This document shows positions 1 to 17,393 of a stretch of DNA of 64,000 bases, piece after piece. Every line of letters starts with the position of its first letter. The stretch's first letter is position 1. The notes under the pieces are model-generated. The model saw only the letters and a list, made by a program, of their open reading frames with translations. It made no database searches and was not told the origin of the DNA. Origin of the DNA: Dyadobacter jejuensis (GTDB lineage: Bacteria > Bacteroidota > Bacteroidia > Cytophagales > Spirosomataceae); assembly GCF_003149085.1 (NCBI RefSeq), contig NZ_QGDT01000005.1, forward strand, positions 124,001-188,000, given 5' to 3'. The translations under genes were made by a program, and so were the position numbers.

Positions 1-278
1 ATTTGCTGTGCCATTTGAATAATGGCTTTTTTGGTGTCCTCATTTACGTCGGGATGGTCGTGAAGTGCCCTGGAAACGGTTGAATTGGCCACTCCTAGCG
101 CCCTAGCAATGTCTTTGATGGTGGTAGGGCGGCTCTTCCTGCTCGTCGGCGATGGCTTTAAAGTGCCTCCCAAGGTGAAATGGAAAGAGCAATCCTTACA
201 ATAGTATCTTTGCTGTCCTCGTAAAAATCCAGCCTTAAGGATGGCCTCTACGCGATTACATTTTAAACATTTGATCAT
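1..278 (-). CDS. LacI-family transcriptional regulator with N-terminal zinc ribbon (partial)
   Basis: Reading the minus strand from the ATG at 276-278 gives 92 codons with no stop, running off the window edge, so only the N-terminus is visible. Residues 1-35 form a zinc ribbon with C4-x2-C7 and C27-x2-C30; the stretch RGQQRYYCKDC is typical of the ribbons of IS1/IS1595-type transposases. After a Ser/Thr/Arg-rich linker, residues about 52-90 are a LacI-type helix-turn-helix (TTIKDIARALGV, then NSTVSRALHDHP). The sugar-binding domain would lie beyond position 1. LacI proteins usually begin directly with the helix-turn-helix, so the ribbon is an extra module. It is divergent from the symporter/oxidoreductase operon and is probably its regulator (inference). 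Confidence 0.85.
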   Translation of the reverse strand, partial: MIKCLKCNRVEAILKAGFLRGQQRYYCKDCSFHFTLGGTLKPSPTSRKSRPTTIKDIARALGVANSTVSRALHDHPDVNEDTKKAIIQMAQQ

Positions 279-760: not shown

Positions 761-2431
761 ATGAGCCCCTTAGACTACCTCGTTATTGTTATTTTTTCGG
801 TGATTATTTTGGTTTCGGGCTTATCGTTCAAAAACAGCGGGACGGACATGAAATCGTACTTTGCCGCGGGAGGTGAGGTGCCATGGCCGATTAGCAGTCT
901 ATCCCTGTTTATGAGTTTTTTTTCGGCGGGTACTTTTGTGGTATGGGGCTCTATTGCCTATCAGTTAGGCGTGGTGGCTATTAGCATCCAGCTCACCATG
1001 TGTGTGGCGGGCTTGCTGGTAGGCGCCTTTATAGCGGGTCGATGGAAGCGGTCCGGAGCGCTTACGGCGGCGCAGTTTATTAAGGAGAGACTGGGGGCTA
1101 AGGCTCAGCAATTTTATACCTACATCATTCTATTCTTGTCGCTGGCATATACAGGAGCCTTCTTATATCCTGTGGCCAAATTGGTGCATGTTTCCACGGA
1201 TATTTCAATCCATTTATCGATCATCGTTTTAGGCTTGCTAGTGATCGCCTATACGGTAGTAGGAGGGCTTTGGGCGGTTATTATCACCGACGTGCTGCAA
1301 TTTGTGATACTTACAGCGGCGGTTTTGATTGTAGTTTTTTTGTCATTGAAGGATATTGGGCCCGTCGATGCATTCTTAGCGTCGGCGCCAGAGCATTTTT
1401 TTAGTCCAACCGCCGGGGAGTACTCCATGACCTTTATTCTGGGTTTTATGATCTATAATCTGATTTTTATTGGAGGAAACTGGGCCTATGTTCAGCGTTA
1501 TACATCGGTAAAGGACGAAAAATCGTCCAGAAAGGTGGGGTATTTATTCGGTATGTTGTATCTGGTTAGTCCGTTTATATGGATGTTACCTCCGATGATC
1601 TACCGCATTACCAACCCCGGATTAAGTGGGTTAGAGAATGAAGGAGCCTATTTATTGGCCTGTAAGGAAGTGCTTCCAGTGGGGATGCTAGGACTGATGC
1701 TGGGCGGTATGATCTTTGCTACGGCGAGCTCGGTCAATACGACCCTCAATATGGCGGCAGCAATACTTACCAACGATGTTTTTAAGCCCATGCGTCCAGG
1801 TGCTACAGAGCAGGATTTGATGCGGTTCGCTAAGTTGGCAACCTTATTTTTTGGGCTTGCGACCATCTGTGTGGCGCTGCTCGTTCCGGCTGCGGGAGGT
1901 ATTGTGGAAGTAGTCCTTACCGTGGGGGCTGTAACGGGCTGTTCCTTATATGGACCTCCTATATGGGCACTTTTTTCGAAACGGCAGTCGGGAAGGTCCA
2001 TCATGACCATTACGATCCTAAGCTTGGGGGTCAATCTATTTATGAAGTTTGCCTCCCCTGTGTTACTAAGCTTCTCATTCAGTAGGGCTCAGGAGATGCT
2101 TTTTGGTGCTTTGGTGCCTTTTATACTATTAGGGGTATATGAGTTTATGCTTTCACGGTCGCTAAAAGAAAGTAGCGATTATGTTCATTACAAGTTCCTG
2201 ATAGACCAAAGAAAGCAGTTGGATGATAATACCCCCGCTGTTCAGTCCGAGAGTAGTCAAAATCGGTATGGTCTTAATGTGCTGGCCAATACCCTCTTGC
2301 TGATCGGCCTGCTGATAGTGGCCATAGGTTGGTACAATTCCGATTCCGTTCTACTGGTTACCCTGGTAGGTGGAGCCATTATCGTTTCGGCCTTGGTGAT
2401 AAGCCCTCGAATATCCTTAACCAAATCATAA
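761..2431 (+). CDS. Sodium:solute symporter (SSS family)
   Basis: A 556-residue, strongly hydrophobic protein with roughly 13-14 predicted membrane helices, matching the solute:sodium symporter family (PF00474) in length and layout. Recognisable features are the N-terminal helix after MSPLDY, a glycine-rich loop near residue 35 (AAGGEVPWP), and the mid-protein segment NWAYVQRYTSVKD, which resembles the conserved Q-R-x-x-x-x-K-D region of SSS proteins. It sits in the inner membrane and should import a small solute, probably a sugar or sugar acid, with Na+. It is the first gene of the rightward operon, 24 bases before an FAD oxidoreductase, so the transported solute may be a substrate or product of that enzyme (inference). 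The exact substrate cannot be read from the sequence. Confidence 0.88.
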   Translation: MSPLDYLVIVIFSVIILVSGLSFKNSGTDMKSYFAAGGEVPWPISSLSLFMSFFSAGTFVVWGSIAYQLGVVAISIQLTMCVAGLLVGAFIAGRWKRSGALTAAQFIKERLGAKAQQFYTYIILFLSLAYTGAFLYPVAKLVHVSTDISIHLSIIVLGLLVIAYTVVGGLWAVIITDVLQFVILTAAVLIVVFLSLKDIGPVDAFLASAPEHFFSPTAGEYSMTFILGFMIYNLIFIGGNWAYVQRYTSVKDEKSSRKVGYLFGMLYLVSPFIWMLPPMIYRITNPGLSGLENEGAYLLACKEVLPVGMLGLMLGGMIFATASSVNTTLNMAAAILTNDVFKPMRPGATEQDLMRFAKLATLFFGLATICVALLVPAAGGIVEVVLTVGAVTGCSLYGPPIWALFSKRQSGRSIMTITILSLGVNLFMKFASPVLLSFSFSRAQEMLFGALVPFILLGVYEFMLSRSLKESSDYVHYKFLIDQRKQLDDNTPAVQSESSQNRYGLNVLANTLLLIGLLIVAIGWYNSDSVLLVTLVGGAIIVSALVISPRISLTKS

Positions 2432-2455
2432 ATAGTTAGTCTTGGATCTGGTCCC

Positions 2456-4771
2456 ATGGAGGGGTCGATACCGGGTGCTAGTGAACCCATTATTATGCTA
2501 ATAGAAGAACCTAAAGCTAAACGAGAGACAAAAAGAATACACCTAACCCACCAACTGGTCGTTACTGGCGGAGGACTGTCAGGGGTATGTACGGCCATTA
2601 CCGCAGCGCGAGCTGGGGTGAAAGTAGCCTTGGTGCAAGATCGGCCCGTTTTGGGAGGCAATGCTTCCAGCGAGGTAAGGTTATGGGTGTTGGGAGCCAC
2701 CTCACATATGGGTAATAACAATCGATGGGCTAGGGAAGGGGGCCTTATCGACGAGCTATTATTAGAAAATGCCTATAGAAACCCAGAGGGCAATCCTAAT
2801 ATACTGGATACCATTTTATTAGAAAAAGTATATCTGGAGGAGAATATCACCTTACTGCTCAATACGGCAGTATATGATTTGACCAAGCATGAGGACGGAC
2901 GTATTGCCACATTAATGGCCTTTTGTAGCCAAAATGCCACCCAATATGAGCTTTCCGCTCCTTTGTTTTGCGATGCCTCAGGCGATGGTATTGTCGGTTT
3001 TATGGCCGGAGCAGCATTTAGGATGGGGGCAGAAGCGATGGAAGAATTTGGTGAGAAGTTTGCCCCGTCCCAGGAATACGGTGAACTGCTGGGGCATTCT
3101 CTTTATTTCTACTCGAAAGACACCGGGGCTCCGGTGCGCTATGTAGCACCAGCCTATGCCTTATCGGACATCAGCAAGATTCCCCGTTTCAGGAGTTTTA
3201 AGTCTAGCGATTTTGGCTGTAGGCTGTGGTGGGTAGAATACGGTGGACGCCTGGATACCGTGCACGACACCGAAACCATTAAATGGGAGCTATGGAAGGT
3301 GATTTATGGCGTTTGGAACCATATTAAAAATTCAGGGGAATTTCCCGAAGCCGAGAACTTAACGCTAGAATGGGTGGGGACTATTCCCGGTAAAAGGGAA
3401 AGCCGGAGGTTTGAAGGCGACTATATGCTGAAGCAACAAGACCTGATCGAACAAAAAACATTTGACGATGCGGTGGCTTTTGGTGGGTGGAGCATCGATC
3501 TGCATCCGGCCGATGGCGTTTTTAGTGAAAAACCTGGCTGTAACCAGTGGCATTCTAAAGGGATTTATGGCATTCCTTATCGGTGCCTTTATAGTCGCAA
3601 CGTCGACAATCTTTTTGTGGCGGGGCGTATTATCAGTGCCAGCCATGTGGCCTTTGGCTCAAGCCGAGTGATGGCCACAGCTGCCCATGGGGGGCAGGCC
3701 ATTGGTCTAGCCGCCGCACTAGGACTGAAGTACAATATGCTACCTCGTGAAATAGGTAAAAATCATATACATGAATTGCAGCAGGATCTTCTGAAAACGG
3801 GACAATACATTCCGCATCTAAAGGTTGAAGATCCAACAGATCTTGCGCAACAGGCCAGTACTTTGACGGCGTCGTCGACTTTGGTGCTCCAGGAGTTGCC
3901 CCATAACGGTGCTTGGGAGCCTTTGCATTTTTCGGCGGCTCAAATGCTCCCCTTGGCTAAGCGTCAGATGCCTGCTATTACTTTTAAAGTGCGGGTTCAG
4001 GAGCCTACGGTGCTAGAGCTTCAGTTAAGAAAAAGCAGCAAGCCTTTCAACCATACGCCAGATGTTACCCTAGAGGTGCGCACCCTAGAGGTGGTACCAG
4101 GGCAGGACAGCTACCAGGTCGACTTTGACTACTTTTTCGAGGAGCCCTGCTATGCTTTTGTATGTTTTATGAAAAATGAAAGGGTGAGTTTGGCCTATAG
4201 CAACAAGAGAATAACGGGGATCTTGTCGGTATTTAATACCACCAATCCTGCTGTATCCAATTATGGCAAACAAGAGCCCGTCGAGGATGTAGGAGTAGAG
4301 GCATTCGAATTTTGGTGTCCTCTTCGAAGGCCCGAAGGCAAAAATATTGCCCTCCAACTCGACCCTCCTTTAGAAGTATTTTCGGTGGAGAACCTCACCA
4401 ATGGAATACAGCGTCCGGTATCTAGTACCAATGCCTGGGTAGGAGCCTATGACGAAGGCGTGTCGCAGATTGTCCTTGCCTGGGAGGAGTCCCAGACCGT
4501 TGGGCGGGTGGAGCTTTTTCTGGATGGTGATTATGATCATCCTTTGGAAACGGTACTCATGAAAAATCCAGAGACCCGAATGCCTTTCTGTGCCGACAAC
4601 ATCACCCTGTTAAATGAAAAAGATCAGGTGCTGGCTATAATTACTGACAATTATTTGAGTAGGAGAACCGTAGAATTTGATAGCCCACAAAGGCTGCACG
4701 AGTTGAAAATAGTAGTAGAGAATACGGCAGAGGATGTTCCCAATGCATTATTTGAAGTCCGTTGCTACTAA
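2456..4771 (+). CDS. FAD-dependent oxidoreductase (FAD_oxidored family), copy 1
   Basis: A 771-residue flavoprotein. Residues 33-60 carry the Rossmann dinucleotide-binding motif (LVVTGGGLSG, with G38, G40 and G43), followed by DRPVLGGNASSEVR, typical of the PF12831 FAD_oxidored family. DASGDGIVGF near residue 173 and the C-terminal FAD motif around residue 380 (RCLYSRNVDNLFVAGRIISA) complete the fold. Residues about 470-771 form extra beta-rich, probably discoidin-like domains ending in FEVRCY. No signal peptide is seen, whereas its closest relative in the window (56642-58564) has a Tat-like signal. The ATG at 2495 (MLIEEPKAK) is an equally plausible start; neither has a clear ribosome-binding site. 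The substrate is unknown; gene context suggests a sugar or sugar derivative. Family is secure, function is not. Confidence 0.85.
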   Translation: MEGSIPGASEPIIMLIEEPKAKRETKRIHLTHQLVVTGGGLSGVCTAITAARAGVKVALVQDRPVLGGNASSEVRLWVLGATSHMGNNNRWAREGGLIDELLLENAYRNPEGNPNILDTILLEKVYLEENITLLLNTAVYDLTKHEDGRIATLMAFCSQNATQYELSAPLFCDASGDGIVGFMAGAAFRMGAEAMEEFGEKFAPSQEYGELLGHSLYFYSKDTGAPVRYVAPAYALSDISKIPRFRSFKSSDFGCRLWWVEYGGRLDTVHDTETIKWELWKVIYGVWNHIKNSGEFPEAENLTLEWVGTIPGKRESRRFEGDYMLKQQDLIEQKTFDDAVAFGGWSIDLHPADGVFSEKPGCNQWHSKGIYGIPYRCLYSRNVDNLFVAGRIISASHVAFGSSRVMATAAHGGQAIGLAAALGLKYNMLPREIGKNHIHELQQDLLKTGQYIPHLKVEDPTDLAQQASTLTASSTLVLQELPHNGAWEPLHFSAAQMLPLAKRQMPAITFKVRVQEPTVLELQLRKSSKPFNHTPDVTLEVRTLEVVPGQDSYQVDFDYFFEEPCYAFVCFMKNERVSLAYSNKRITGILSVFNTTNPAVSNYGKQEPVEDVGVEAFEFWCPLRRPEGKNIALQLDPPLEVFSVENLTNGIQRPVSSTNAWVGAYDEGVSQIVLAWEESQTVGRVELFLDGDYDHPLETVLMKNPETRMPFCADNITLLNEKDQVLAIITDNYLSRRTVEFDSPQRLHELKIVVENTAEDVPNALFEVRCY

Positions 4772-4943
4772 TTGATTTTCTATGAACTACAACAGTATTT
4801 TTAGGCTTTGTTGGCTTTAGTGTTGTCGTCGGGACCGCCGTGGGGGTAGCTCTAGGATCGAGTTTGGAAATTTCGGATTGTGATTTTGTAAAAATTTTTA
4901 ATACAACCTTTGATTAACGCAGTACTATTTTAATGAAATAACC

Positions 4944-6806
4944 ATGAAAAAATTAACCTTATTATTTTTGCTGAGCATTTGCGGAGCTTATGCTCAAAAG
5001 CCGACTACCGTGATGGTGGAAGCTGAAAGTTTCAAAAACAAAGGAGGCTGGGTAGTAGACCAACAGTTTATGGATGTGATGGGGTCCTCGTTTTTGATGG
5101 CCCATGGAATGGGTAAGCCGGTAGCAGATGCCAGCACAACGGTAAGTTTTCCCAGCAAAGGAAAGTACAAAGTATATGTGCGTACCCGTAACTGGTCGTC
5201 CCAATGGTCGAAGAAGGAGGCAGCAGGGCAGTTTCTGCTATCGGTCGATGGTAAAACCCTCCCCAAAACATTTGGAAAAGACCATGCCGAATGGGCCTGG
5301 TCGGAAGGCGGAACGGTGAAGATTTCGAAAAAGGAGGTAATCCTATCTCTTAAAGACCTTACGGGTTTCAATGGCCGTGTCGACGCTATCATTTTCACTA
5401 ACGATCCAGCCTTTAAGCCTACCAATGACGTAAAAGCGCTAAGTGACTTTAGGAATGATTACTTCGGTTTTGACCGTAATCCCAAACTTGCCGGAGACTT
5501 CGACTTTGTGGTAGTGGGGGGAGGAATGGCCGGCACCTGTGCGGCTATTGCTGCTGCGCGTAATGGGGTTAAAGTGGCTTTAATCCAAAACCGACCCGTA
5601 CTTGGAGGTAATAATAGTTCGGAGGTTCGGGTACACCTTGGGGGGCGCATTAACCTAGAGCCCTATCCTGCATTGGGGAACTTGGTCAATGAAATTGGGC
5701 CCAAAGAAGGAGGGAATGCCCAGCCTAAGGATTACTATGAGGATGATAAAAAAATGAATGCCGTTCTCAATGAACCTAATATCTCTTTATTCTTAAATCA
5801 TCATGCCAATTCGGTAGAGACCAATAATGGTACCATCGAAAGTGTTACTGCGACGAATATAGAAACGGGTGAAAGGGTGATTTTTAAAGGGGCTCTCTTC
5901 GCCGATTGTACTGGCGATGGTACCATCGGGATCCTAGCAGGGGCAGAGTATATGATAGGTCGGGAAAGCCAATCGGTGTATGGCGAACCTACAGCACCAG
6001 AGGTAGCCGATAACCTAACCATGGGAGCCTCCGTACAGTGGTTCTCCGAGACCAAGGACACTCCGGCAACTTTTCCAGATATTCAATGGGCGCTACCTTG
6101 GGACGAAGAAAAATCGGAAGAGATTACCAAGGGTGATTGGGAATGGGAGACTGGTATGGGCTTGGATATGAAACTGGATTTCGAACAAATTCGTGATTAT
6201 GGTATGCTGGCCGTTTATTCTAACTGGAATTACTTGAAGAACCATTCGAAAAATAAGGAAAAGTTTGCCAAGGAAAGTCTACGTTGGGTGGCATTTATAG
6301 CCGGTAAGAGAGAGTCGGTAAGGCTGAAGGGTGATTATGTATTAATAGAGCAGGACTTAACGATCCCACGGGTGTATCCCGATGGTACCGCCCCTACATC
6401 GTGGACGATCGATTTGCATTATCCAGACCCTGAAAACTCCAAACTTTTCCCTGGAGCGGCGTTTAAGTCTATTGCCAAGCACACCAAGATTTATCCCTAT
6501 CCTATTCCTTTCCGTTGCCTTTACTCCAAGAATATTAACAATCTCATGATGGCTGGTCGCGACATCAGCGTGTCGCATGTGGCCTTGGGAACGGTAAGAG
6601 TCATGCGTACCACCGGAATGATGGGCGAAGTAGTGGGTATGGCGGCTTCGGTTTGTAAAAAGGAAAATACTACACCGAGAGGGCTTTATCAGAAACATTT
6701 CGATCAGCTAGAAGCCTTGATGTTGAAAGGGGTAGGCGACCCCACTTTGCCTTATATCCAAGGGTATAATAATGGTGGAACCTTAATGGAAATCAAAAAG
6801 AAATGA
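4944..6806 (+). CDS. Exported FAD-dependent oxidoreductase with N-terminal CBM-like domain
   Basis: A 620-residue protein starting with a Sec signal peptide (MKKLTLLFLLSICGAYAQ, cleavage probably after AYA). Residues about 20-160 are beta-rich and open with VEAESFKNKGGW, resembling CBM6/CBM35-like domains. The FAD_oxidored domain starts near residue 186 with VVVGGGMAG (G192, G194, G197), then RPVLGGNNSSEVR, an internal DCTGDGTIG and a C-terminal FAD motif (RCLYSKNINNLMMAGRDIS). A carbohydrate-binding-like domain joined to an oxidoreductase suggests a periplasmic or surface enzyme acting on a glycan or oligosaccharide (inference). Its stop overlaps the next gene by 4 bases (ATGA), implying translational coupling with the flavinylation-motif protein. 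Sec export of an FAD enzyme is unusual because FAD is normally loaded before Tat export. Confidence 0.87.
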   Translation: MKKLTLLFLLSICGAYAQKPTTVMVEAESFKNKGGWVVDQQFMDVMGSSFLMAHGMGKPVADASTTVSFPSKGKYKVYVRTRNWSSQWSKKEAAGQFLLSVDGKTLPKTFGKDHAEWAWSEGGTVKISKKEVILSLKDLTGFNGRVDAIIFTNDPAFKPTNDVKALSDFRNDYFGFDRNPKLAGDFDFVVVGGGMAGTCAAIAAARNGVKVALIQNRPVLGGNNSSEVRVHLGGRINLEPYPALGNLVNEIGPKEGGNAQPKDYYEDDKKMNAVLNEPNISLFLNHHANSVETNNGTIESVTATNIETGERVIFKGALFADCTGDGTIGILAGAEYMIGRESQSVYGEPTAPEVADNLTMGASVQWFSETKDTPATFPDIQWALPWDEEKSEEITKGDWEWETGMGLDMKLDFEQIRDYGMLAVYSNWNYLKNHSKNKEKFAKESLRWVAFIAGKRESVRLKGDYVLIEQDLTIPRVYPDGTAPTSWTIDLHYPDPENSKLFPGAAFKSIAKHTKIYPYPIPFRCLYSKNINNLMMAGRDISVSHVALGTVRVMRTTGMMGEVVGMAASVCKKENTTPRGLYQKHFDQLEALMLKGVGDPTLPYIQGYNNGGTLMEIKKK

Positions 6807-7858
6807 GGTGGTTGCTTGCACAAATACTACTCCTGTTGACCTTGGGCTCCTTCCAGATGAGAGATCATCTGGAGGAGCCCTCCTTTAGCATAAAATTGGA
6901 GGATGGGGGTCGTTTTGATGTATATGCCTTAAAAGATGGAAATGGCTTATTGGATGGTTATAGGGCTCATATCAAAGCTCCCGTATGCGAAGACCGGCTT
7001 TGTTATGATGTTAATGTGATTTTTTATTGGAACCTTAATGGCGAATTTCTACGCTACGAGGTATTGCCCCATGACCCTCTTACCAAAATGGATCATGAAC
7101 CATTTTTGCCCGAGGATTATAAGAAATTACAAAGCATCCTGACCAGTCAGGACCTGAGCTTCGTGAATATACCGAAGGACGAATTGGTGACAAAATCGGA
7201 TAGCTCGGAGGTGGATGGTTACACGGGCGCTACCAAGTTGACCGTAAAGAAGGAAGTGATTGAAGGGGCCTTGTACACCTGTTATACCCTTTGGCATATT
7301 GCAAATGGTACGGTGGTTGAGTCTATAAAGAGTCATACCAAAAATGCGTTTAGTAAGGAGTTGATTAGGAAAATCATAGCTCAAGACAATCAGACGGCAC
7401 ATTATTTTCTGATCAATAACCTCAATTCGAGTCAGTTTGCCGAAAATTTGCCCGAAATACTCGGTCTGATGACCAGTAGTAAGGGGTATTTTAGTAAGAA
7501 TACCATAGAGAAGATCCCTAAAACACTTTTCAGTACCGAACCGTTACAGGACTTTATTGTAGCTAACTATCAGGAGCTCGACTATTACACCCAGCTGGCT
7601 ATTCTTAAGAAGCTCGATAATCAACGACAAAGCGGTAGCCTTAAGCAGTTTTTTATTGGACATATAGATCCGAAAAATAGTTTTCAAAATCAAAAGCTTA
7701 TCGGTCTTGTACTACAAAACATTGGTCCAGAGGAGTTTGGTCTTTTGGTGGGCCAGTTGCAAGCCACAGGCGTGGGTGTTTCCGAAGAAAACTTCCAAGC
7801 CTTACAGCAGGTCAATGAGCAGTTAAAGTTAAATATATCGATGATTCAGAAGCTGTAA
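6803..7858 (+). CDS. Exported protein with covalent FMN-attachment motif (FMN_bind-like)
   Basis: A 351-residue protein with a hydrophobic N-terminal signal (MRWLLAQILLLLTLGSF). Residues 138-144 read DGYTGAT, matching the D-x-x-S/T-G-A-T site at which the flavin transferase ApbE attaches FMN in NqrC, RnfG and other extracytosolic proteins; Thr144 would be the attachment residue. A C-x4-C pair (C62, C67) and the segment TCYTLWH just after the motif are shared with the paralogue at 58569-59692. Residues about 190-351 are mainly alpha-helical. It overlaps the upstream FAD oxidoreductase by 4 bases and directly abuts the next gene, so it is probably an extracytosolic electron acceptor or carrier for that enzyme (inference). 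No apbE is present in the window. The protein family as a whole is not one I recognise. Confidence 0.7.
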   Translation: MRWLLAQILLLLTLGSFQMRDHLEEPSFSIKLEDGGRFDVYALKDGNGLLDGYRAHIKAPVCEDRLCYDVNVIFYWNLNGEFLRYEVLPHDPLTKMDHEPFLPEDYKKLQSILTSQDLSFVNIPKDELVTKSDSSEVDGYTGATKLTVKKEVIEGALYTCYTLWHIANGTVVESIKSHTKNAFSKELIRKIIAQDNQTAHYFLINNLNSSQFAENLPEILGLMTSSKGYFSKNTIEKIPKTLFSTEPLQDFIVANYQELDYYTQLAILKKLDNQRQSGSLKQFFIGHIDPKNSFQNQKLIGLVLQNIGPEEFGLLVGQLQATGVGVSEENFQALQQVNEQLKLNISMIQKL

Positions 7859-8977
7859 ATGATGAAATTGATCAAAACCATCTGTGGAATGCTGATACTG
7901 GCCTTGGTTGGTTCCGTGGATATCAGTTTGGCCCAATCCCAGCAGAAGGGCTATGCTTTAAAGCTGGGCAAGGTGCCTATGTCGGCCAAGTTTGTCAATG
8001 ACACCATGAGTATTTGGGGCGCCTCTCTGATCAAAGGCGGCGATGGCCTATATCACCTCTATTATTCTCAGTGGAAAAAGAGTTTGGGGTGGGCATGGGT
8101 GACCGACTCCGAAATAGCGCATGCCGTATCCAAAAGTCCTTTCGGTCCATTTACATTTCAAGATGTGTTCCTACCTAAGCGTGGGGACGAGTATTGGGAT
8201 GGCCTTTGTACCCATAACCCGACCATTCACCGATTTGGTGGTAAATACTATTTGTACTATATGGGCAATACTGGCGATGGAGTGGTGACTGGTACTCCAG
8301 GTAAGGAAGCTCTGAACTGGACGCATAGAAACAACCAGCGTATTGGCGTTGCGGTTGCCGATAATCCCAATGGTCCATGGGAAAGGTATGATCAACCGCT
8401 TATCGATAACAGTTCGGATAGTCTCGCCATCGATGCTTTAATGACATCAAATCCCTCCATGACGCAAAGACCGGATGGTACGTATTTGTTTATTTATAAG
8501 GGGGTTGGTATGCATTACCCCCTGCCTGGGGGAGGACCGGTACTCCATTGTGTGGCTACTTCCGATAGTCCTGTAGGCCCAATAAAAAAATACGATGTGC
8601 CCATCTTCGAAGTAAAAGGAGAGCGGTTTCCGGCTGAGGATCCCTATATCTGGTATGAAGAGAATAGGTATAGGGCTATTGTTAAGAAAATTAGCAATGC
8701 AAAGGACCCTGTTACTGGTAAGATGATTCGAGGTTTTTCATTGGTTTTATATGAGTCGGCCGATGGTTTCGACAGGAAGCTAGCGGAGGATTACCTAATT
8801 TCGGATCGGACCATTACCTGGGAAAATGGCCATTCGGAGCGGTTGGTGCACCTAGAACGCCCGCAAGTGTTCTTTGAAGATGGCCGTCCTACTGTATTGC
8901 TCTGCGCAGCCGACTTTCTAGACGCCAACGGCGTGCGACAGTCCTTTAATCTTCAAATTCCTTTGATTCGTAAGTAA
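7859..8977 (+). CDS. Five-bladed beta-propeller glycoside hydrolase-like protein
   Basis: A 372-residue secreted protein (signal MMKLIKTICGMLILALVGS, cleavage near SLAQ). Repeated propeller blades appear as LYHLYYSQW, GKYYLYYMG and YRAIVKK, with HNPTIH, EDPYIW and a C-terminal LERPQVFF motif, like the GH43/GH32/GH117 superfamily of five-bladed propellers. The carboxylates in EDPYIW and the residues around HNP are candidate active-site positions. The same LERP motif occurs in the protein at 10564-13011, so the two are related. It starts one base after the flavinylation-motif gene ends and is certainly cotranscribed with it. It probably trims glycosyl residues from an oligosaccharide in the periplasm; the exact family number and substrate cannot be assigned from the sequence. 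Confidence 0.72.
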   Translation: MMKLIKTICGMLILALVGSVDISLAQSQQKGYALKLGKVPMSAKFVNDTMSIWGASLIKGGDGLYHLYYSQWKKSLGWAWVTDSEIAHAVSKSPFGPFTFQDVFLPKRGDEYWDGLCTHNPTIHRFGGKYYLYYMGNTGDGVVTGTPGKEALNWTHRNNQRIGVAVADNPNGPWERYDQPLIDNSSDSLAIDALMTSNPSMTQRPDGTYLFIYKGVGMHYPLPGGGPVLHCVATSDSPVGPIKKYDVPIFEVKGERFPAEDPYIWYEENRYRAIVKKISNAKDPVTGKMIRGFSLVLYESADGFDRKLAEDYLISDRTITWENGHSERLVHLERPQVFFEDGRPTVLLCAADFLDANGVRQSFNLQIPLIRK

Positions 8978-9053
8978 AATCTTCAAATTTATAACGGTTA
9001 GGAATTACAAGCTAGTCACGATTCAAACGGCCTGGTTTGCTTCATTTTAATTC

Positions 9054-10355
9054 ATGAAAAAGATGAAAAAACAATTTAAACCTACATGGGCTTGGATGGG
9101 CCTTTTATTGATTTGTGGAGCTAGCTCTTGCTCCCAAAAGGCTAGCCCCAAGCTTACAAGCCAGGCGGCCGATGCTTCTGTGGCTAAGGTCTTTCCGCAT
9201 AAGATGCCTACCGAGAAGCCCGACTTTCCGATGAGTGCGGCCATGGAACGCATGTTCGACTACCCTGCTCCTAGGGTCCACGATAATGAACTTTTTAGTC
9301 AGTTTAAATACACCCGACTAGAGGGGTTTGATTACCATGGAGGCGATGGGACCGTATCGAGGCGCGATCCTTCCCGTCCGATATTGGTGAACGGGACCTA
9401 TTACATTTGGTACACCAAAAGAGATACCAAGGTGCCTCCTATAGGCTGGGATAAGGCTGCCGAAGTGACCGACGAGATCCCATCGACCGATTGGGACCTT
9501 TGCGATATTTGGTATGCCACCAGTAAGGACGGTATTACCTGGGCCGAGCAAGGCGTAGCCGTTGCTAGGCCACCAAAGCCTAGCCCGGGGTGGCGCTCGG
9601 TATGTACCCCCGACATACTGGTATGGAAAGGAAAGTACTATTTATACTATCAAGCTTTCAATGAGCCCAGTGGGCTAAAAGGAGATTGGTGCCCAGTGTC
9701 TGTGTCCTATGCCGACTCCCCCAATGGTCCCTGGACCCATGGAGGCGACGAGGTAATTCCCTTTGGCAAAAAAGGGGAGTGGGATCAGGATGCTACCCAC
9801 GATCCATTTCCTATCGTATACAAAGGGAAAATTTATCTGTATTATAAAGCGGCCTATAACAAATGGCCCGACGATCGCAAGCATTATGCTGTAGCCCATG
9901 GCTTGGTTACGGCCACCGATCCACTAGGGCCATTCACTAAGCACCCCCTCAATCCAGTGCTTAATTCGGGCCATGAAACCACCTATTTCCCCTTCAAAGG
10001 AGGTGTTGCTGCGTTAGCCATTAAAGATGGGAACGAAAGGGAAACCATTCAATACTCCGAGGACGGTGTCAACTTTCATATTGCATCGGTGGTGTCCTTG
10101 ACTCCCACCGCTGCTGCGCCTTATGCCGCCGATATGTTTACCAACACCTCCGACGGGCGCGGTATTACCTGGGGGCTATGTCACTTTGTGAATGCTGGTG
10201 CCCCTAAAAAGGGGTATTCTATTATTGCTCGCTTCGACTGTGACCTAAGTTTGGACAATAACGATCCCCGATTCAAAGATACTGGCGTATGGCATAAACC
10301 CGAAGTGTATTTCCAACAAGGAATCAACCACGATCACGCTCCCGAAAAGCGCTAG
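9054..10355 (+). CDS. GH117-like glycoside hydrolase (neoagarooligosaccharide hydrolase family), lipoprotein
   Basis: A 433-residue protein with a lipoprotein-type signal (MGLLLICGASSC). The body matches family GH117: PILVNGTYYIWYTKRD, WDLCDIWYATSKDG, the CTPDILVWKGKYYLYYQ blade and HDPFPIVYKGKIYLYYK are the blade motifs of this five-bladed propeller family. Characterised members release 3,6-anhydro-L-galactose from neoagaro-oligosaccharides, but the family also contains clades of other or unknown specificity. The start ATG at 9054 is followed by a second in-frame ATG at 9063; either gives the same signal. It follows two oxidoreductases and a propeller glycosidase and precedes a related propeller protein and a sulfatase, suggesting a sulfated galactan or similar glycan (inference). 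No agarase or carrageenase lies in the window. Confidence 0.75.
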   Translation: MKKMKKQFKPTWAWMGLLLICGASSCSQKASPKLTSQAADASVAKVFPHKMPTEKPDFPMSAAMERMFDYPAPRVHDNELFSQFKYTRLEGFDYHGGDGTVSRRDPSRPILVNGTYYIWYTKRDTKVPPIGWDKAAEVTDEIPSTDWDLCDIWYATSKDGITWAEQGVAVARPPKPSPGWRSVCTPDILVWKGKYYLYYQAFNEPSGLKGDWCPVSVSYADSPNGPWTHGGDEVIPFGKKGEWDQDATHDPFPIVYKGKIYLYYKAAYNKWPDDRKHYAVAHGLVTATDPLGPFTKHPLNPVLNSGHETTYFPFKGGVAALAIKDGNERETIQYSEDGVNFHIASVVSLTPTAAAPYAADMFTNTSDGRGITWGLCHFVNAGAPKKGYSIIARFDCDLSLDNNDPRFKDTGVWHKPEVYFQQGINHDHAPEKR

Positions 10356-10563
10356 TGGGCCATGCTTAGAGCCGGTAATGCTAGAATTGTTTAATAAGAT
10401 ACTGATATGATACCATTTAGTGTTTCTTAATAAATTTAAGTTTGTGTGTGGTTATTGCTGGAAGTAGATATCAGATGGGTCTCCGTGGCCCAGCTGATAC
10501 CTTCCTAATGATGATTGTCGACGTAAGGCCATAGAACTTAGAACTTAAGAAAGTATCAGATGA

Positions 10564-13011
10564 ATGAAACATTTTAGCCCTAAGTCGTTTTACCTATTGA
10601 TGCTGGTCATTTTTGTGTTCCACAAGAATGGGTTCAGTCAGATTGCCCTATTAGGCGATAATGCTCCATTCGCTAATAAACTTGATGGTGATTTTAATGC
10701 CGTCTGGGCGAGTTGGAGAGCCGCTAAGCAGTCACCCTATTGGACCACCAGGGTAGTTAAAGGCAACGAACCCATGGGAGTCCATGAAGGAGCCTTGTTT
10801 AGTATGAATGAGCTGGGAGTTGCCGAGTCTATGAGGCTAAGCGGTACTGCCGATTATCCTGAGCCTAGGGTAGGGGATGTTTGGAATTGGAGTTTTGGTG
10901 CCGACTTGGAGTATATCAGTAAGGGGACGATTTCACTCAGTTTGGTTTTTGCTGATCATGAGCAACTCTTGGCAGAGAAAGTTGCCCTTCATGGTTCCGA
11001 TAAAGTCATAGAACATTTTTCGGGAACTTATACCCTCACTGCCCAGGACGTAAAAATGGGCTTTCCCTTTGTTAGAGCTACTTTCTATTCGGGGGAGGGT
11101 ATCAAAGTTTTTTTAGATTATGTCAACATCAATGTTGCTACTCCTGAATTGCCCGCTCCGGTGCTAAGGGGGGAGGCCAGCAAGGAGGGGGTTCTGCTCC
11201 AATGGGAGGATAACCTGGCCGCTACAGCAACAAGCTATGCCATTTACAGGTCTACCTCGGAGAGGGAGGGTTATCAAAAAATTGGAGCTTGCGCGGCTCA
11301 GTCGTTTCTTGATACTACCATTGTGAATGGTATCAATTACACCTATGTGCTTACCAAGTCGGCAAGGGAATCCTCGAGGTCCAATAAGGTCAACATTCGG
11401 AGACTCGACCGGGATGCGCCTGCCCCTCCGCAGGATTTGGCGGTACAGGTCTACGATACTGAAATAAAACTGATGTGGTCGAAGTCTGTCGACAAGGATG
11501 TCTCTCATTATGCGGTGTACCGAACCGATGCCCGAGGTGGTAATGCCGTTGAGATAGCTCATCATTTGAAGCATAATTCCTATTTGGATTTTACTCCGGA
11601 AAAAGGTGTTGAGAACATATACACGGTATATGCTTATGACTATAGCGGAAATAAAAGTGCGGCTTCACCGTCGATTAAGTCCAAGGTGAAGGCGGTGTTT
11701 GGGGCTTCCTTTAGTGACCTTATATTGCCAATGCCCATTCATAAAGGGCTGCGTTCCGATGTATGGGGTGCTCCTGGCGTAGTACCGAGGGACCCCGACA
11801 ATGGCATTGAGGACAAGGATTGGTCCTATTGGGGAGGGCGACCCGTTGAAGATCCCGATGGTCAGTACCATATGTTGGTGACTAGGTGGCCAGCTAATGC
11901 TACCAAGGGGCATTGGGAGTGGCCCAATTCGACTGTGGCGCACGCCGTAGCAAAAAAGCCCACCGGGCCCTACCTAGTCAAGGATACGTTGGCCTATGAA
12001 GCCCACCAGGGCTATGGCCACAATCCAGATATTATACTGCTCAATGATGGGACTTTTATGCTTTATTCTTTAATAAATTGGGAGCCCACTTTATTTACTT
12101 CAAAAAGCATGAATGGGCCGTGGAGTCGCCTTGGAGTGATCACCATCGATACCCTCAATCTTAGGGATAACCCCAGTTTATTTTATCGGTACCAGAGAAA
12201 TTTGTCGGGGGTGCATCTCGACGATGGAAGGTTCCTCTTTGTCACCAAGGCGGGGGCGATGATGATTAGCCAAGGGGTCGATCCTTTGGGGCCTTATCGT
12301 GTGCTTACCAAGGCGCTGGAAGGGAGTTGGGTCATTCCAGAAAAATATAGAAACTCTAATTATGAAGATCCAGTAATATGGAAAGATGATGTTCAATTTC
12401 ATATGATTATCAATGCCTTTTTGGATTATAGGGCCATCTATCTCCGCTCACCCGATGGAATCCATTGGAAGTTCAACCCTGGCACTGCCTATACCCCCAA
12501 TAATACCCGCTATCAGGATGGCACCCAAACGCATTGGTATAAGCTAGAGCGTCCTCACGTGTTACAGGATGGATTGGGCAGAGCCACGCATTTATCCTTA
12601 GCGGTCATAGACGTACCCAAGGCCGACGATTTGGCAAGGGATAACCATAGCTCGAAAAATATCGTAATCCCGCTGACCGTACCCAAGCAGATTAGGCTTC
12701 TTACTAAGGAACCTATCAATAAAAAGATCAACATAAAACTGCTGATTAAATCTGAAAAGGGATTTGATGCCCAGAATGATATAGACTTAAACAGCTTACG
12801 TTTTGGAGCATCTGAAGAGGTAGATTTTGGTAATGGAATGGTGATGGTTAAGGCTAAAAAACGGGGAAAAGATTTGTTAGTTGTTTTTGGTAAAGAGGGC
12901 CATGGGCTTACTGAAAAGGATTTTACCGGCAAACTTTTAGGGTTTACAAAAGAACATCAATTGATATTGCGATATGTAAAACTTATGAGTAATCTAAAAT
13001 ATGAGGAGTAA
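10564..13011 (+). CDS. Multidomain secreted protein: jelly-roll-like domain, two FN3 domains, glycosidase-like beta-propeller
   Basis: An 815-residue protein with a signal peptide (MKHFSPKSFYLLMLVIFVFHKNGFSQ). Residues about 30-190 look like a beta-sandwich carbohydrate-binding domain. Two fibronectin type III-like domains follow (about 195-280, containing LQWEDN, and 290-375, containing LMWSKSVDKDVSHYAVYR). Residues about 390-705 form a five-bladed propeller related to the protein at 7859-8977, including STVAHAVA, GHNPDIILL, YEDPVIW and KLERPHVLQ. The C-terminal 100 residues are unassigned. The preceding 208 bases separate it from the GH117-like gene, and it overlaps the sulfatase start by 11 bases, so these two are translationally coupled. 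It is probably a periplasmic or surface glycosidase with binding modules; catalytic activity is inferred from the fold only. Confidence 0.7.
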   Translation: MKHFSPKSFYLLMLVIFVFHKNGFSQIALLGDNAPFANKLDGDFNAVWASWRAAKQSPYWTTRVVKGNEPMGVHEGALFSMNELGVAESMRLSGTADYPEPRVGDVWNWSFGADLEYISKGTISLSLVFADHEQLLAEKVALHGSDKVIEHFSGTYTLTAQDVKMGFPFVRATFYSGEGIKVFLDYVNINVATPELPAPVLRGEASKEGVLLQWEDNLAATATSYAIYRSTSEREGYQKIGACAAQSFLDTTIVNGINYTYVLTKSARESSRSNKVNIRRLDRDAPAPPQDLAVQVYDTEIKLMWSKSVDKDVSHYAVYRTDARGGNAVEIAHHLKHNSYLDFTPEKGVENIYTVYAYDYSGNKSAASPSIKSKVKAVFGASFSDLILPMPIHKGLRSDVWGAPGVVPRDPDNGIEDKDWSYWGGRPVEDPDGQYHMLVTRWPANATKGHWEWPNSTVAHAVAKKPTGPYLVKDTLAYEAHQGYGHNPDIILLNDGTFMLYSLINWEPTLFTSKSMNGPWSRLGVITIDTLNLRDNPSLFYRYQRNLSGVHLDDGRFLFVTKAGAMMISQGVDPLGPYRVLTKALEGSWVIPEKYRNSNYEDPVIWKDDVQFHMIINAFLDYRAIYLRSPDGIHWKFNPGTAYTPNNTRYQDGTQTHWYKLERPHVLQDGLGRATHLSLAVIDVPKADDLARDNHSSKNIVIPLTVPKQIRLLTKEPINKKINIKLLIKSEKGFDAQNDIDLNSLRFGASEEVDFGNGMVMVKAKKRGKDLLVVFGKEGHGLTEKDFTGKLLGFTKEHQLILRYVKLMSNLKYEE

Positions 13012-14809
13012 ATATTATATTATCAAAATGGCCTTTGCTTTAAGCCTATTCCTGGCCGTTCATTCCCTGCTCTATGGGCAGCAAAGTGTAAGCAGGAGGC
13101 CAAATGTGATACTGATTCTGACCGACGACCAAGGCATTGGTGACTTAGGTTGTCATGGAAATCCATGGTTAAAGACGCCTAACATCGATTCTTTTTATGA
13201 GCATGCAGTTCGGTTTACTAATTTTCATGTGAGTCCGATGTGTACCCCAACCCGTGGGGCCTTAATGACCGGCCGATACCCCATCCATAATGGAGCTTGG
13301 GCTACCTATAAAGGCAGGGATGCTTTGTCGGAACGGGCTTATACCATGGCCGATTTATTCCAGAGAAATGGTTACGCAACCGGGTTGTTTGGAAAATGGC
13401 ATCTGGGAGATAATTACCCTGTGAGGCCTACGGATTCTGGATTTGATGTCGCCCTACACCATCTGGCAGGCGGTGTAGGGGAACTGTCGGACTATTGGGG
13501 GAATAATTACTTCGATGACGTATATTTTATGAATAATAAGCCGGTACAATTTAAAGGGTACTGCACCGATGTCTGGTTCGATCAGGCTATGAGATTTATG
13601 AAATCAAAGAAGGATGCCCCATTTTTCGTTTATTTGCCTACCAACGCCCCGCACACTCCTTTGTACGTCGATCAGAAATATGCGAAGCCTTATCAAGCGC
13701 TAGAAAAGGAGCATAAAATTGTGAGTGCCGATTATTATGGAATGTTAGCTAATCTTGACGAAAATTTTGGAAAATTAGAGGCCTTCTTAAAGGAAAATAA
13801 CTTAGCTGATAATACTATTCTTATTTTTATGACAGATAATGGTACGGCCAATGGGATAAGTCAGGATGGTACAGTAGGATATAATATGGGTTTGCGAGGC
13901 CGAAAGGGGGACCAGATCGATGGAGGCCATAGAGTCCCGTTTTTTATACAATGGATAGAAGGGAATATCCATGGCGGCTGGGACATAGAGCAAGCGGCGG
14001 CTCATGTAGACTTGCTGCCTACCCTCGCTAATTTGTGCCAGATCGATCTTCCTAGTGATTTATTATTGGATGGTGTGAACCTATCGGCACTGATGCAACA
14101 CAAGGGGGCTAGGATCGAGGAGAGAAATCTATTTATCCATTATCGACAGGATTGGCGACCTCCCACGGACATAGACAATACTTGTGTGATCATGAACCAG
14201 TGGCGATTAGTCAATGGCAACGAACTCTATGACCTGTCGAAGGACAGAATGCAATTGGAAAATGTAGCTGCCAAGTATCCTGAATTGGCCCAAAGGATGA
14301 GGGACGAGAATGCGGGTTTTGTTAGATCCGCCAAAACTACTACCGAATATACAGAGTTTCCAGTGGCTGTATTAGGTAACCCAAGCCAAACTGAAATCAA
14401 ACTTACTATCCAACATGCCATCGGGGAAAATCCGGGCTTTTGGAAGAGCGAGCAAGTGGCAGAAGGATTAAAATGTGGCAATAATACCCATGCTATTAAA
14501 GTGGAGAAAGAAGGGATGTACCGCATTGCTTGCAGGAGATGGCCCAAGGAATGCTCAGGGCCAATATTAGGAATTCCCTCCAAAAATCCTAAAAATTGGT
14601 TCTCCTATAAGGCTATTACCCCCGACAAGGTCAGGATTCAAGTGGCCAATCAGATGTTGGAAAAAAACATTGGCCCCACTGATGAAGAGATAGCTTTTGA
14701 GGTATACCTCGAAAAAGGGAAAACTTTTTTAGTAAGCGATTTTATTGAAGGTAAAAATAGATATGGCGTGTATTATACATATATCACAACACTGCCTGAG
14801 AAGCCTTAG
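13001..14809 (+). CDS. S1-family sulfatase
   Basis: A 602-residue formylglycine sulfatase of family S1. After a signal peptide ending near YGQQ, residues 34-44 (PNVILILTDDQ) provide metal-binding D42 and D43. C81 in the C-T-P-T-R signature is the residue converted to formylglycine, followed by GALMTGRYP. K132 and H134 in GKWHLG and D279-N280 in MTDNGT fit the remaining active-site positions. Residues about 460-602 are an added beta-rich domain common in arylsulfatases of polysaccharide loci. It removes sulfate esters from a glycan in the periplasm; maturation needs a sulfatase-maturing enzyme (anSME or FGE), absent from this window. It overlaps the upstream gene by 11 bases and is the last gene before a terminator. 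Confidence 0.93.
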   Translation: MRSKYYIIKMAFALSLFLAVHSLLYGQQSVSRRPNVILILTDDQGIGDLGCHGNPWLKTPNIDSFYEHAVRFTNFHVSPMCTPTRGALMTGRYPIHNGAWATYKGRDALSERAYTMADLFQRNGYATGLFGKWHLGDNYPVRPTDSGFDVALHHLAGGVGELSDYWGNNYFDDVYFMNNKPVQFKGYCTDVWFDQAMRFMKSKKDAPFFVYLPTNAPHTPLYVDQKYAKPYQALEKEHKIVSADYYGMLANLDENFGKLEAFLKENNLADNTILIFMTDNGTANGISQDGTVGYNMGLRGRKGDQIDGGHRVPFFIQWIEGNIHGGWDIEQAAAHVDLLPTLANLCQIDLPSDLLLDGVNLSALMQHKGARIEERNLFIHYRQDWRPPTDIDNTCVIMNQWRLVNGNELYDLSKDRMQLENVAAKYPELAQRMRDENAGFVRSAKTTTEYTEFPVAVLGNPSQTEIKLTIQHAIGENPGFWKSEQVAEGLKCGNNTHAIKVEKEGMYRIACRRWPKECSGPILGIPSKNPKNWFSYKAITPDKVRIQVANQMLEKNIGPTDEEIAFEVYLEKGKTFLVSDFIEGKNRYGVYYTYITTLPEKP

Positions 14810-14855
14810 ACGGCCATTTCCATTCCGTTTGTCATGGTCCCATTTGGTTATTCTC

Positions 14856-14898
14856 GAGGTATCGGTGCTTTAATAGGCGCCAATACCTCAAGGTTTTT
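14856..14898 (+). terminator. Rho-independent terminator after the sulfatase operon
   Basis: The arms GAGGTATCGGTGC (14856-14868) and GCGCCAATACCTC (14877-14889) pair with one G-T wobble and one mismatch and are followed by five T at 14894-14898. It lies between the convergent sulfatase and SugE-like genes and would end the rightward transcript. Confidence 0.65.
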
Positions 14899-14899
14899 C

Positions 14900-15226: not shown

Positions 15227-15376
15227 GCTGTTAATATTTAATGGGGCAAGATCGAGAAGATTTTCTAGATATACTCGGAAATGAAGCGGGAAATTGGACT
15301 ATTTTCACTACTGTCTTCTGTGTTTTTTTCAAAGACATTCAGGGATAGCCAGTTGGTACGTCCTGCCTAAAGAAAA

Positions 15377-15405
15377 ACTCCCCGGCGCATATGCACACGG
15401 GGAGT
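15377..15405 (-). terminator. Terminator of the leftward FecR-SusC-SusD operon
   Basis: Perfect 7-bp arms ACTCCCC (15377-15383) and GGGGAGT (15399-15405) enclose a loop containing the self-complementary GCATATGC. On the minus strand the hairpin is followed by TTTTTCTTT, so it ends the transcript about 50 bases after the SusD stop. Confidence 0.75.
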
Positions 15406-15454
15406 CTTAAATGCTCAAATTCCAGGAAAAGAAAGTTAATTGACAGGGGTCAGC

Positions 15455-17371
15455 TTACCATCCTGGATTTTGAACAAGGTTAGGGTTTAGGTTTATTTGT
15501 GTTGTGGAAATGGGTTGAAGGTAATTTTTAATGGCAAATCGGCGGTTGGAGGCCAGTTCCGAAATGATGGCACCCGGCTTGGTGGTTGCTATACCTGGGT
15601 AGGTTGAAACTGTGATTTCCGACTGCAGAATATTGGCCTCCCCATAAGACGCTTTATTCAGAATAGGGTTGCCTGTATTGGGGTTAATGGCCGTAGAGTA
15701 CTCCGTTTCTTCCCCATTATATTTGATATAAATACCACAAATCGGCTGTCCTGCCATTTCATCTTGTGCGATTCCCCACCGGCATAAATCTGTGATGCGC
15801 TGTCCTTCGCCATGTAATTCTATGGCTCTTTCTCTCCGTATTTCTCCTAATAAGGTTAGGTCACTATATGGGGCGATCAGGGCATGGGTGAGGGGAGCTA
15901 CTCCGGCCCGATCTCTAACCACGTTGATAGAGTAATTGAGGTCGGCATCCGAAATCTCTCCGTTACCTAGCTCTGCAGTGGCTTCCGCATAGATCAAATA
16001 AATTTCGGCCATTCGGATATGGAGGTAGTCGGCTGACTCTTGGTTGGTAACCCGGTCGTTGCTTTCCGTCCCAAATTTGCGGCTATTGTATCCCCACGAT
16101 CCATTCAGATTAGGGATATATTGGTAGGTAGTAGAGGCTAAGGTAGTGATATCGATGGCGTAGTTAGAGCCGGCATTGTTAGAGCCCCATCCCCAGTACC
16201 AGTCCATAGGCTTCTGTATGGTGGAGGTAAGCCGGTAGTCGCGATTCTCGTATTCGGAGGTCATGGTCTTATATCCTTGGAATAGGGGAGAGTGCTGAAC
16301 TGGCAAGCCGTCGGTACACAGGGCCATGTCCATATATTTACGACTTGGCTTAGCGGGTTTGGAGTGGGTGAGGTTGGTGCCTCCCCGTCGCAAATTAAAG
16401 TCGTATACACTCCTAAATATAGCTTCATGATTAGACGCCTTGGTCAACCCATTGGGGTTGGAGCCGGCATCTTCCAAATTGAAGAGATAGTAATAGCTCG
16501 TATGGGCATACATTTCTGGGTTAGCCACTCCACCAGCCGTAACCGACTCCATTCCTTTCCAGAGCGAGAACTGCCCCCCGTCGATGAGCTCTTTGGAGAG
16601 GGTCTTGGCTATGGTCAGGTATTCTTTGTATTTGTTGGCATCGTAGCCCGCCGAACCGGCTCCAGCGCTGGTGCCATCTCCATCGGTGGCTGTCTTTACA
16701 TATTTTTCCCAGGTACCTTCATATAGGGCTATGCGGGCCTTTAAGGCTTTGGCGGCTTCAACAGTCACATGGCCATCGTTAGCGGTGCTCGCCTTAGTGA
16801 CGGCCCCTTTGGTAAGGTTTTCGATAGCCGCATCCAGATCCTTCATGATTTGGGCCATTACCTGATAGCGCGACGCCCTGGGGCCAAATACAATTTCAGA
16901 ACTTGGGTCGGTCACTTCTGTGGCAATGGGTACTCCACCAAAGCGTTTTAGCAGGAAGAAATGATGCCAAGCCCTGAAAAAGTAGGCCTGACCGGTGTAA
17001 CCGGCTATTTCGTCCTTATTGGGATAAGCGTCGGTTTTGGAAAGGAAAACGTTGACCGTCCGCAACCATGCATAGGCTTTGTCCCAGTATTCGTCGGTCG
17101 TGGTGGCGGTATTGGTGCCGCTACCGTCGGCGGTGGGTGCCGAGCTCATGTCCGATCCATTATCGAAATTGATGGCATAGGTGGTATTACCGTTCCACGC
17201 ATATACATTGGTATGCAGGTTGTCGGCGCCAGCCTTTATTTCCGCTACAGTCTTGAAATACGCCGCTTCGGTGACGGAAGCCTGCGGGTTTTGGTCGAGT
17301 ATATCCGTACAGCTCGTTGCGGAAGCTAGCAACATGATGGCGGCAACAATATTTTTATTTATGATTTTCAT
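15455..17371 (-). CDS. SusD/RagB-family outer-membrane lipoprotein
   Basis: A 638-residue surface glycan-binding lipoprotein. The signal ends in ASATSC with C21 as the lipidated cysteine, followed by TDILDQNPQASVTEAAYF, the usual SusD N-terminal pattern. The TPR-containing helical region (FFRAWHHFFLLKRFGGVP, AKALKARIALYEGT) is recognisable, and the protein ends in the family hallmark NPNLVQNPGW. It forms the lid of the SusC transporter encoded immediately upstream (22 bases away). The ligand is unknown. A terminator follows about 50 bases downstream. Confidence 0.95.
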   Translation of the reverse strand: MKIINKNIVAAIMLLASATSCTDILDQNPQASVTEAAYFKTVAEIKAGADNLHTNVYAWNGNTTYAINFDNGSDMSSAPTADGSGTNTATTTDEYWDKAYAWLRTVNVFLSKTDAYPNKDEIAGYTGQAYFFRAWHHFFLLKRFGGVPIATEVTDPSSEIVFGPRASRYQVMAQIMKDLDAAIENLTKGAVTKASTANDGHVTVEAAKALKARIALYEGTWEKYVKTATDGDGTSAGAGSAGYDANKYKEYLTIAKTLSKELIDGGQFSLWKGMESVTAGGVANPEMYAHTSYYYLFNLEDAGSNPNGLTKASNHEAIFRSVYDFNLRRGGTNLTHSKPAKPSRKYMDMALCTDGLPVQHSPLFQGYKTMTSEYENRDYRLTSTIQKPMDWYWGWGSNNAGSNYAIDITTLASTTYQYIPNLNGSWGYNSRKFGTESNDRVTNQESADYLHIRMAEIYLIYAEATAELGNGEISDADLNYSINVVRDRAGVAPLTHALIAPYSDLTLLGEIRRERAIELHGEGQRITDLCRWGIAQDEMAGQPICGIYIKYNGEETEYSTAINPNTGNPILNKASYGEANILQSEITVSTYPGIATTKPGAIISELASNRRFAIKNYLQPISTTQINLNPNLVQNPGW

Positions 17372-17393
17372 ATTCGTTATTTCTAATGGTTAA

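Follow-up and report, generated by a model that had tools for sequence, protein, structure and literature searches.

Flavin mononucleotide (FMN) that is attached to proteins by ApbE sits on the last residue of a D-x-x-[S/T]-G-A-[S/T] motif (PMC12052999). A survey of flavinylation defined the systems that use this modification through ApbE itself, PF04205, DUF3570 and DUF2271, described characterized pairs of a flavin adenine dinucleotide (FAD) enzyme and an FMN_bind protein that are reductases, and held that clusters lacking a transmembrane system presumably depend on proteins encoded elsewhere (PMC8238504). Beyond PF04205, ApbE substrates include NqrB/RnfD, DUF2271, Flavodoxin_4 and FMN reductase (PMC11334425). 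Here we analyze a window of 64,000 nucleotides from Dyadobacter jejuensis (contig NZ_QGDT01000005.1, positions 124,001 to 188,000), in which a glycan-uptake locus contains two overlapping genes, one for an exported-type FAD_oxidored protein (FADox2) and one for an exported-type protein with the ApbE motif (FMNx). Our preferred reading, held with moderate confidence, is that FADox2 and FMNx are a periplasmic flavoenzyme and its ApbE-flavinylated electron carrier, which suggests that Dyadobacter-type bacteria use a relay of electrons from flavin to flavin to process certain sugars outside the cytosol. Export is predicted throughout, from N-terminal sequence features that were scored by simple rules or by eye.

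The original prediction had seen two FAD_oxidored genes (the first is called FADox1 here) followed by the gene of an exported protein with DGYTGAT, and the three open reading frames, the 4-base overlap of the last two (ATGA) and the motif at residues 138-144 were all recovered (Table 1). The strict motif is scarce in the surroundings. Among the called genes of at least 100 amino acids in the window, it occurs in FMNx and in a paralogue (58569-59405) only, and among 1154 neighbor proteins other than FMNx in related loci it occurs once. FMNx was detected in 83 of the 222 genomes of the family, from 20 of 36 genera. The sample for the locus counts below, the DNA around every such place in the family and around three places outside it, comprised 138 stretches with 144 FMNx frames, one gene being split into two frames (L164). 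By a simple rule, 138 of the 144 frames have a hydrophobic N-terminus; the FMNx of Dyadobacter tibetensis (L034) is 54% identical to the one in the window.

Across 143 aligned FMNx proteins, D138 is invariant and position 144 is Thr in 142 cases and Ser in one, while the inner positions 141 (S 57, A 51, T 35) and 142 (G 111, S 31, A 1) drift. This pattern is consistent with mutant data, according to which exchange of the last motif residue for Ala abolishes flavinylation and substitutions at the Asp, Gly or Ala have a weaker effect; the invariance of the Asp exceeds what these mutants would require (PMC12052999). FMNx combines the motif with a predicted signal for export, and its genome encodes ApbE; judging by its sequence, it is probably an ApbE substrate that carries FMN. 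C62, C67 and W76 are also present in 143 of 143 members; the two cysteines, which are spaced by five positions, equal the motif in conservation and possibly form a disulfide.

The genomic association of FMNx with FAD_oxidored is tight. For this comparison, a FADox profile was built from locus frames of more than 400 amino acids that match the FADox proteins of the window at E 1e-15 or better. A FAD_oxidored gene lies within 1 kb and on the same strand for 142 of the 144 FMNx frames, the remaining ones being L122, where it is 3.1 kb off, and L167, which is near a contig end; for FMNx representatives (<70% identity), the count is 73 of 75. This bears out the co-occurrence of PF12831 genes with motif-bearing neighbors on which the original prediction had staked its case. 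A check with the Pfam profile PF12831 itself covered ten genomes that have FMNx and consist of 1-2 contigs; matches at E 1e-30 or better adjoined 13 of 14 FMNx. The D. jejuensis genome has four FMNx, all of them beside a strong PF12831 match (4/4), and their loci hold six of its eight strong matches. As only 3 of the 71 PF07980 SusD matches of the same genome are located within 5 kb of one of these eight, residence in glycan loci does not account for the link between FMNx and FADox. Outside the family, six of the seven FMNx matches in a draw of genomes from the phylum adjoin a FADox; the seventh (L062) has an adjacent apbE and no FADox in its 1.5-kb flanks. On a plasmid of Flammeovirga kamogawensis, a FADox annotated as "FAD-dependent oxidoreductase" is encoded immediately 5' of an FMNx (DGRSGAT, "hypothetical protein"), and a Persicobacter plasmid has a FADox at a distance of 2.3 kb from its FMNx (DGFSGAT).

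FADox1 and FADox2 both fit PF12831 along the domain, with 315 and 243 bits, respectively (cut-off 27), and FADox2 has an additional Golvesin_C match at E 0.0089, under the cut-off of that family. PF00890 also scores above its cut-off of 20.4 (24.4 and 31.3 bits), but the matches are confined to the shared nucleotide-binding stretch (37-51 of 414 positions). We have rejected a PF00890 fumarate-reductase-like assignment, since it is PF12831 that covers the whole domain, and since the neighboring FMNx is not PF04205. An AlphaFold model of FADox2 from three sequences had a predicted local distance difference test (pLDDT) score of 43 and was not used.

The N-terminus of FADox2 is of the Sec type. 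FADox1 has no hydrophobic segment there and no recognizable export signal, and its symporter-adjacent relatives in other genomes lack such a signal as well. This leaves FADox2 as the one FAD protein of the two that could encounter FMNx beyond the cytosol. The predicted exported FAD-FMN module therefore survives with regard to FADox2, which is of export type and paired with FMNx, and not with regard to FADox1, which is without a signal peptide and linked by position only. The same holds for the broader idea of a glycan-locus FAD enzyme with a flavinylated partner, for which co-occurrence is strong and membership of FADox1 is unsupported. The paired FADox number 141. The long, FADox2-like type accounts for 81 of them, all with a correctly placed hydrophobic segment (81/81). 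Among the remaining 60, 43 have an RR-plus-hydrophobic N-terminus that resembles a twin-arginine translocation (Tat) signal, and by eye 13 of the last 17 start with MERR or MDRR, one resembles a Sec-type protein, and the other three are truncated or interrupted or show no start. This test, placed beside the conserved start, replaced a cruder rule, which had assigned a signal to 91 of 138 paired FADox and to 1 of 8 further FADox from the loci. Tat export of a folded, FAD-loaded enzyme would suit a periplasmic flavoprotein.

The setting of the pair points to glycan use. SusC-like genes are present in 126 of the 138 stretches, SusD-like genes in 125 and at least one of the two in 129 (similarity clusters, with labels verified by Pfam on members). 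In the window, SusC, SusD, GH43-like proteins and a sulfatase within 7859-20870 make up a susC/susD pair with carbohydrate-active genes, and hence a polysaccharide utilization locus. We suggest the following model. The SusCD pair would bring a sugar, an oligosaccharide or a sugar derivative into the periplasm, and FADox2 with its FAD would act on it, most likely as a dehydrogenase; both the sugar as substrate and the oxidation are guesses. ApbE, encoded elsewhere in the D. jejuensis genome and within the locus in many relatives, would attach FMN to Thr144 of FMNx. We infer that electrons would pass from FADox2 to this covalent FMN, and from there they may reach a membrane acceptor encoded outside the locus. 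FADox1, as a cytosolic relative of FADox2 encoded beside a sodium symporter, could act on the imported product, which is again a guess.

Electrons might also flow in the reverse direction, from quinol through FMNx to FADox2, which would then reduce an exported substrate in the manner of the flavinylated fumarate and urocanate reductases. This agrees with the precedent of the characterized pairs and with the PDB search by the FADox profile, in which flavocytochrome c fumarate reductases came out best, matching in the FAD-binding part (149 of 493 profile positions). It does not agree with the glycan-uptake setting, as judged by the frequency of SusC-like and SusD-like genes in the stretches, and the respiration of glycan-derived acceptors would be odd for aerobic Dyadobacter-type bacteria. 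On balance, we consider the reductive direction unlikely.

The proposed couple also has to be weighed against a number of observations that speak against it, some of which concern the FAD enzyme and others the carrier. FMNx is nearly always accompanied by FADox, but FADox often occurs without FMNx, because sister enzymes of exported type (L238-L251), which share 44-47% identity with their closest FADox from FMNx loci, lack an FMNx in 14 of 14 stretches (7-14 kb), and 44 of the 57 strong PF12831 matches in the ten FMNx-bearing genomes are not beside FMNx. Nine more strong matches were found in four genomes without FMNx, and a FADox pair in the D. jejuensis genome stands beside SusD without FMNx (L037, C2:285000-304900). 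Moreover, FMNx is rare beyond the family (8 of 395 genomes of the phylum draw, 6 of them from outside the family), and none of the 45 commonest neighbor clusters, inspected by eye, resembles a membrane electron acceptor. Finally, operon co-inheritance can hold neighbors together without physical contact.

The 14 sister stretches, five of which have a SusD-like gene, raise the possibility that net electron removal is unnecessary. FADox enzymes might be redox-neutral on sugars, oxidizing them, eliminating or rearranging, and then re-reducing, so that FMNx would only reset a flavin whose redox state has ended up wrong. Glycosides are known to be cleaved by an oxidation and a subsequent elimination (PMC10628242). 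However, the coupling of FMNx to FADox in 142 of 144 frames is tighter than an accessory would need, and we regard a redox-neutral enzyme as quite improbable. The sister enzymes themselves mostly start with an MKRRxFIG-like sequence, and a protein of about 825 amino acids from one family is encoded in 7 of their 14 stretches, in L238 and L244 together with a symporter and a FADox1-like gene. Near the FADox pair of L037, there are a GMC oxidoreductase and a gluconate 2-dehydrogenase subunit 3 protein, possibly another redox partner.

With regard to the carrier, searches by Foldseek, hhalign and Pfam gave no significant sign of the FMN_bind fold in FMNx, and 83 of the 143 members deviate from the strict motif of the literature (with A as fourth residue, S for G or, in a few, other changes), which is present in the other 60. 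Neither Pfam nor NCBIfam has a family that FMNx matches at its cut-off or better. PF04205 does not match the FMNx at 6803-7858, and among 14 diverse members it has a single match (E 0.098, 13.8 bits versus a cut-off of 22). No significant relative was found in the PDB, where the best E-values were 0.085 by sequence and 0.11 by a 14-sequence profile. In hhalign comparisons, the 144 FMNx frames aligned with 8 motif-selected PF04205 sequences at a probability of 58% over 92 columns, and with 30 unselected ones at 22% locally (33 columns around the motif) and 45% globally. The AlphaFold model of FMNx (mean pLDDT 77) has its strands first and the motif before helices, with a poorly predicted motif loop and a helical C-terminal half; Foldseek retrieved nothing with it at E <=0.001 and placed C. 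tetanomorphum RnfG (7zc6_G) at rank 21 with E 0.32. Because none of these matches is significant, we have not assigned FMNx to PF04205 (FMN_bind), to which a distant relationship is possible.

It could be argued from the missing FMN_bind match, the hhalign result for the 30 proteins and the non-canonical motifs that FMNx is not flavinylated at all, that its motif is structural, and that the protein is a chaperone, an anchor or, through C62/C67, a redox-disulfide partner of the FAD enzyme. The conservation of the motif Asp and of Thr or Ser at the acceptor position in all aligned members argues against this idea, and so does the distribution of apbE, which is located within 3 kb of 62 of the 144 FMNx frames (20 of 75 representatives). 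Nearby apbE genes are commoner with non-canonical than with strict motifs (49 of 83 versus 13 of 60, Fisher p 8e-6), also among representatives (13 of 31 versus 7 of 43, p 0.018), a difference that is inflated by the shared ancestry of the AGAT clade. We therefore hold an unflavinylated FMNx to be very unlikely. At the level of whole genomes, apbE tells little. The original prediction depended on its presence, and there are three copies in the D. jejuensis genome, but this is a weak point, as apbE is found in 219 of the 222 family genomes; for the same reason, its presence in 83 of 83 FMNx-bearing genomes is uninformative. The D. jejuensis genome has no PF04205 match at E 0.001, and no search for further families of ApbE substrates was made in it. 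In a paralogous locus of this genome (contig C2), the gene order is susC-susD-FMNx-FADox-apbE.

FADox1, FADox2 and FMNx belong to one row of genes on the plus strand (761-14809), with a symporter before them and, after them, a pair of GH43-like proteins, the 815-aa protein and the sulfatase (Table 1). The similarity cluster of the symporter is represented in 58 of the 138 FMNx loci and that of the LacI-type regulator in 68, and a full-length relative of the regulator (L042:448-1608) matches Pfam LacI and Peripla_BP_3. In 44 of these 68 regulators, a zinc-ribbon-like N-terminus (CxxC...CxxC) precedes the helix-turn-helix, an odd fusion that recurs across several genera. A protein of about 840 amino acids (L042:9728-12244 and relatives) accompanies the FADox-FMNx module in 71 of 138 loci; it has a partial GH88 match (31 bits versus a cut-off of 26.6, 87 residues), a GH127 match below cut-off and a GH76 match at E 0.01. 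The second FADox-FMNx copy in the window may be decaying, since its FAD gene is interrupted by a stop and its FMNx is short.

Table 1. Features of the 64,000-nucleotide window, with positions counted from its first letter.
Feature	Positions	Strand	Basis and remarks
LacI-type regulator N-terminus, leading zinc ribbon	3..278	-	Translation; cut by window edge; divergent from operon
Sodium:solute symporter (SSS)	761..2431	+	PF00474 E 7.3e-33
FADox1, PF12831 FAD_oxidored, 771 aa, probably cytosolic	2456..4771	+	PF12831 E 1e-93
FADox2, exported-type PF12831 with N-terminal extension, 620 aa, likely periplasmic flavoenzyme	4944..6806	+	PF12831 E 7.5e-72
FMNx, exported-type, 351 aa, probable ApbE substrate (FMN carrier)	6803..7858	+	Translation, motif, model
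Invariant C62-x4-C67 of FMNx	6986..7003	+	143/143 aligned members
DGYTGAT, FMNx residues 138-144, Thr144 as predicted FMN acceptor	7214..7234	+	Conservation and motif definition of PMC12052999
GH43-like protein, signal peptide by eye	7859..8977	+	PF04616 E 1e-9; begins right after FMNx stop
Second GH43-like protein, signal peptide by eye	9054..10355	+	PF04616 E 1e-9
815-aa protein, signal peptide by eye	10564..13011	+	No Pfam match; same gene row
Sulfatase	13001..14809	+	PF00884 E 1.3e-53
SusD-like outer-membrane glycan-binding protein	15455..17371	-	PF07980 at contig C5 139458-140354; SusD cluster
SusC-like TonB-dependent receptor	17394..20870	-	Plug E 3.1e-17, CarbopepD_reg_2 E 1.1e-18
Second-locus SusC-like TonB-dependent receptor	49531..52620	+	Plug E 3.4e-18, CarbopepD_reg_2 E 5.9e-21
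Second-locus SusD-like protein	52621..54417	+	PF07980 at contig C5 177617-178414; SusD cluster
Second-locus FAD_oxidored, RR-type N-terminus by eye	56642..58564	+	In-frame stop at 57686-57688
Second-locus FMNx paralogue, 278 aa, DALSGAT	58569..59405	+	PF04205 E 0.098, 13.8 bits vs cut-off 22

The FADox-FMNx pair is not described in the text of PMC8238504 or PMC11334425, as far as the parts consulted go, and the supplementary tables of these articles may list such clusters unnamed. In the open-licence literature, no paper was found that joins flavinylation with polysaccharide utilization or ApbE with both polysaccharide utilization and FAD-dependent oxidoreductases, and FMN-binding combined with four related terms likewise gave none. 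Among the matches listed for ApbE and SusC, none is on this pair by title and start of abstract, and for PF12831 or FAD_oxidored the match was a paper on the Brucella ovis flavoproteome. A more far-reaching interpretation, which we offer tentatively and with more doubt than belief, is that FMNx represents an unrecognized class of ApbE substrates, that FADox and FMNx form a flavinylated module for electron transfer, the first to be devoted to glycan use, wiring the periplasmic oxidation of many glycans to the respiratory chain, and that the specificity of the ApbE enzymes encoded in the loci has shifted to match drifted motifs (DxxAGAT, DxxSSAT). If this is true, a carrier family that is hidden from the survey profiles and goes with PF12831 enzymes would explain what some members of the large FAD_oxidored family do, and would suggest a role for ApbE in a genome without PF04205 proteins. 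Bacteroidota glycan loci could then include a respiratory redox step. The drifted-motif FMNx with their own apbE would provide a natural set of ApbE enzymes whose target specificity may have changed, which would be of use in flavin tagging.

How does the pair compare with known systems? Periplasmic sugar dehydrogenases feed the respiratory chain, as exemplified by the FAD-dependent glucoside 3-dehydrogenase with cytochrome c. Our model shares with them a flavin-dependent oxidation of sugars outside the cytosol and a separate carrier, but it differs in the nature of this carrier, which would hold FMN covalently, and in the family of the enzyme. FMNx resembles NqrC and RnfG in the D-x-x-[S/T]-G-A-[S/T] motif with the last residue as predicted FMN site and in the modelled order of strands, motif and helices. 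It differs from them in its invariant Cys pair, its helical C-terminal half and the lack of a significant PF04205 sequence match, and its loci, inspected by eye, contain no recognizable Nqr or Rnf gene. In lying outside PF04205, FMNx is like the further ApbE substrates of PMC11334425, none of whose families, as named there, is among its Pfam or NCBIfam matches. Close counterparts of the pair are the PF00890 and PF04205 fumarate-reductase-like enzymes, in which an exported FAD enzyme is likewise fused or adjacent to an ApbE-type motif and the electron source is thought to be encoded elsewhere (PMC8238504). Unlike these, the FADox-FMNx pair has a PF12831 enzyme, a carrier that PF04205 does not see, no fusion among the open reading frames of the related loci, and a SusCD locus as its home; and if FADox2 is a dehydrogenase, its electrons would travel in the direction opposite to that in the FAD_binding_2 and FMN_bind reductases (PMC8238504).

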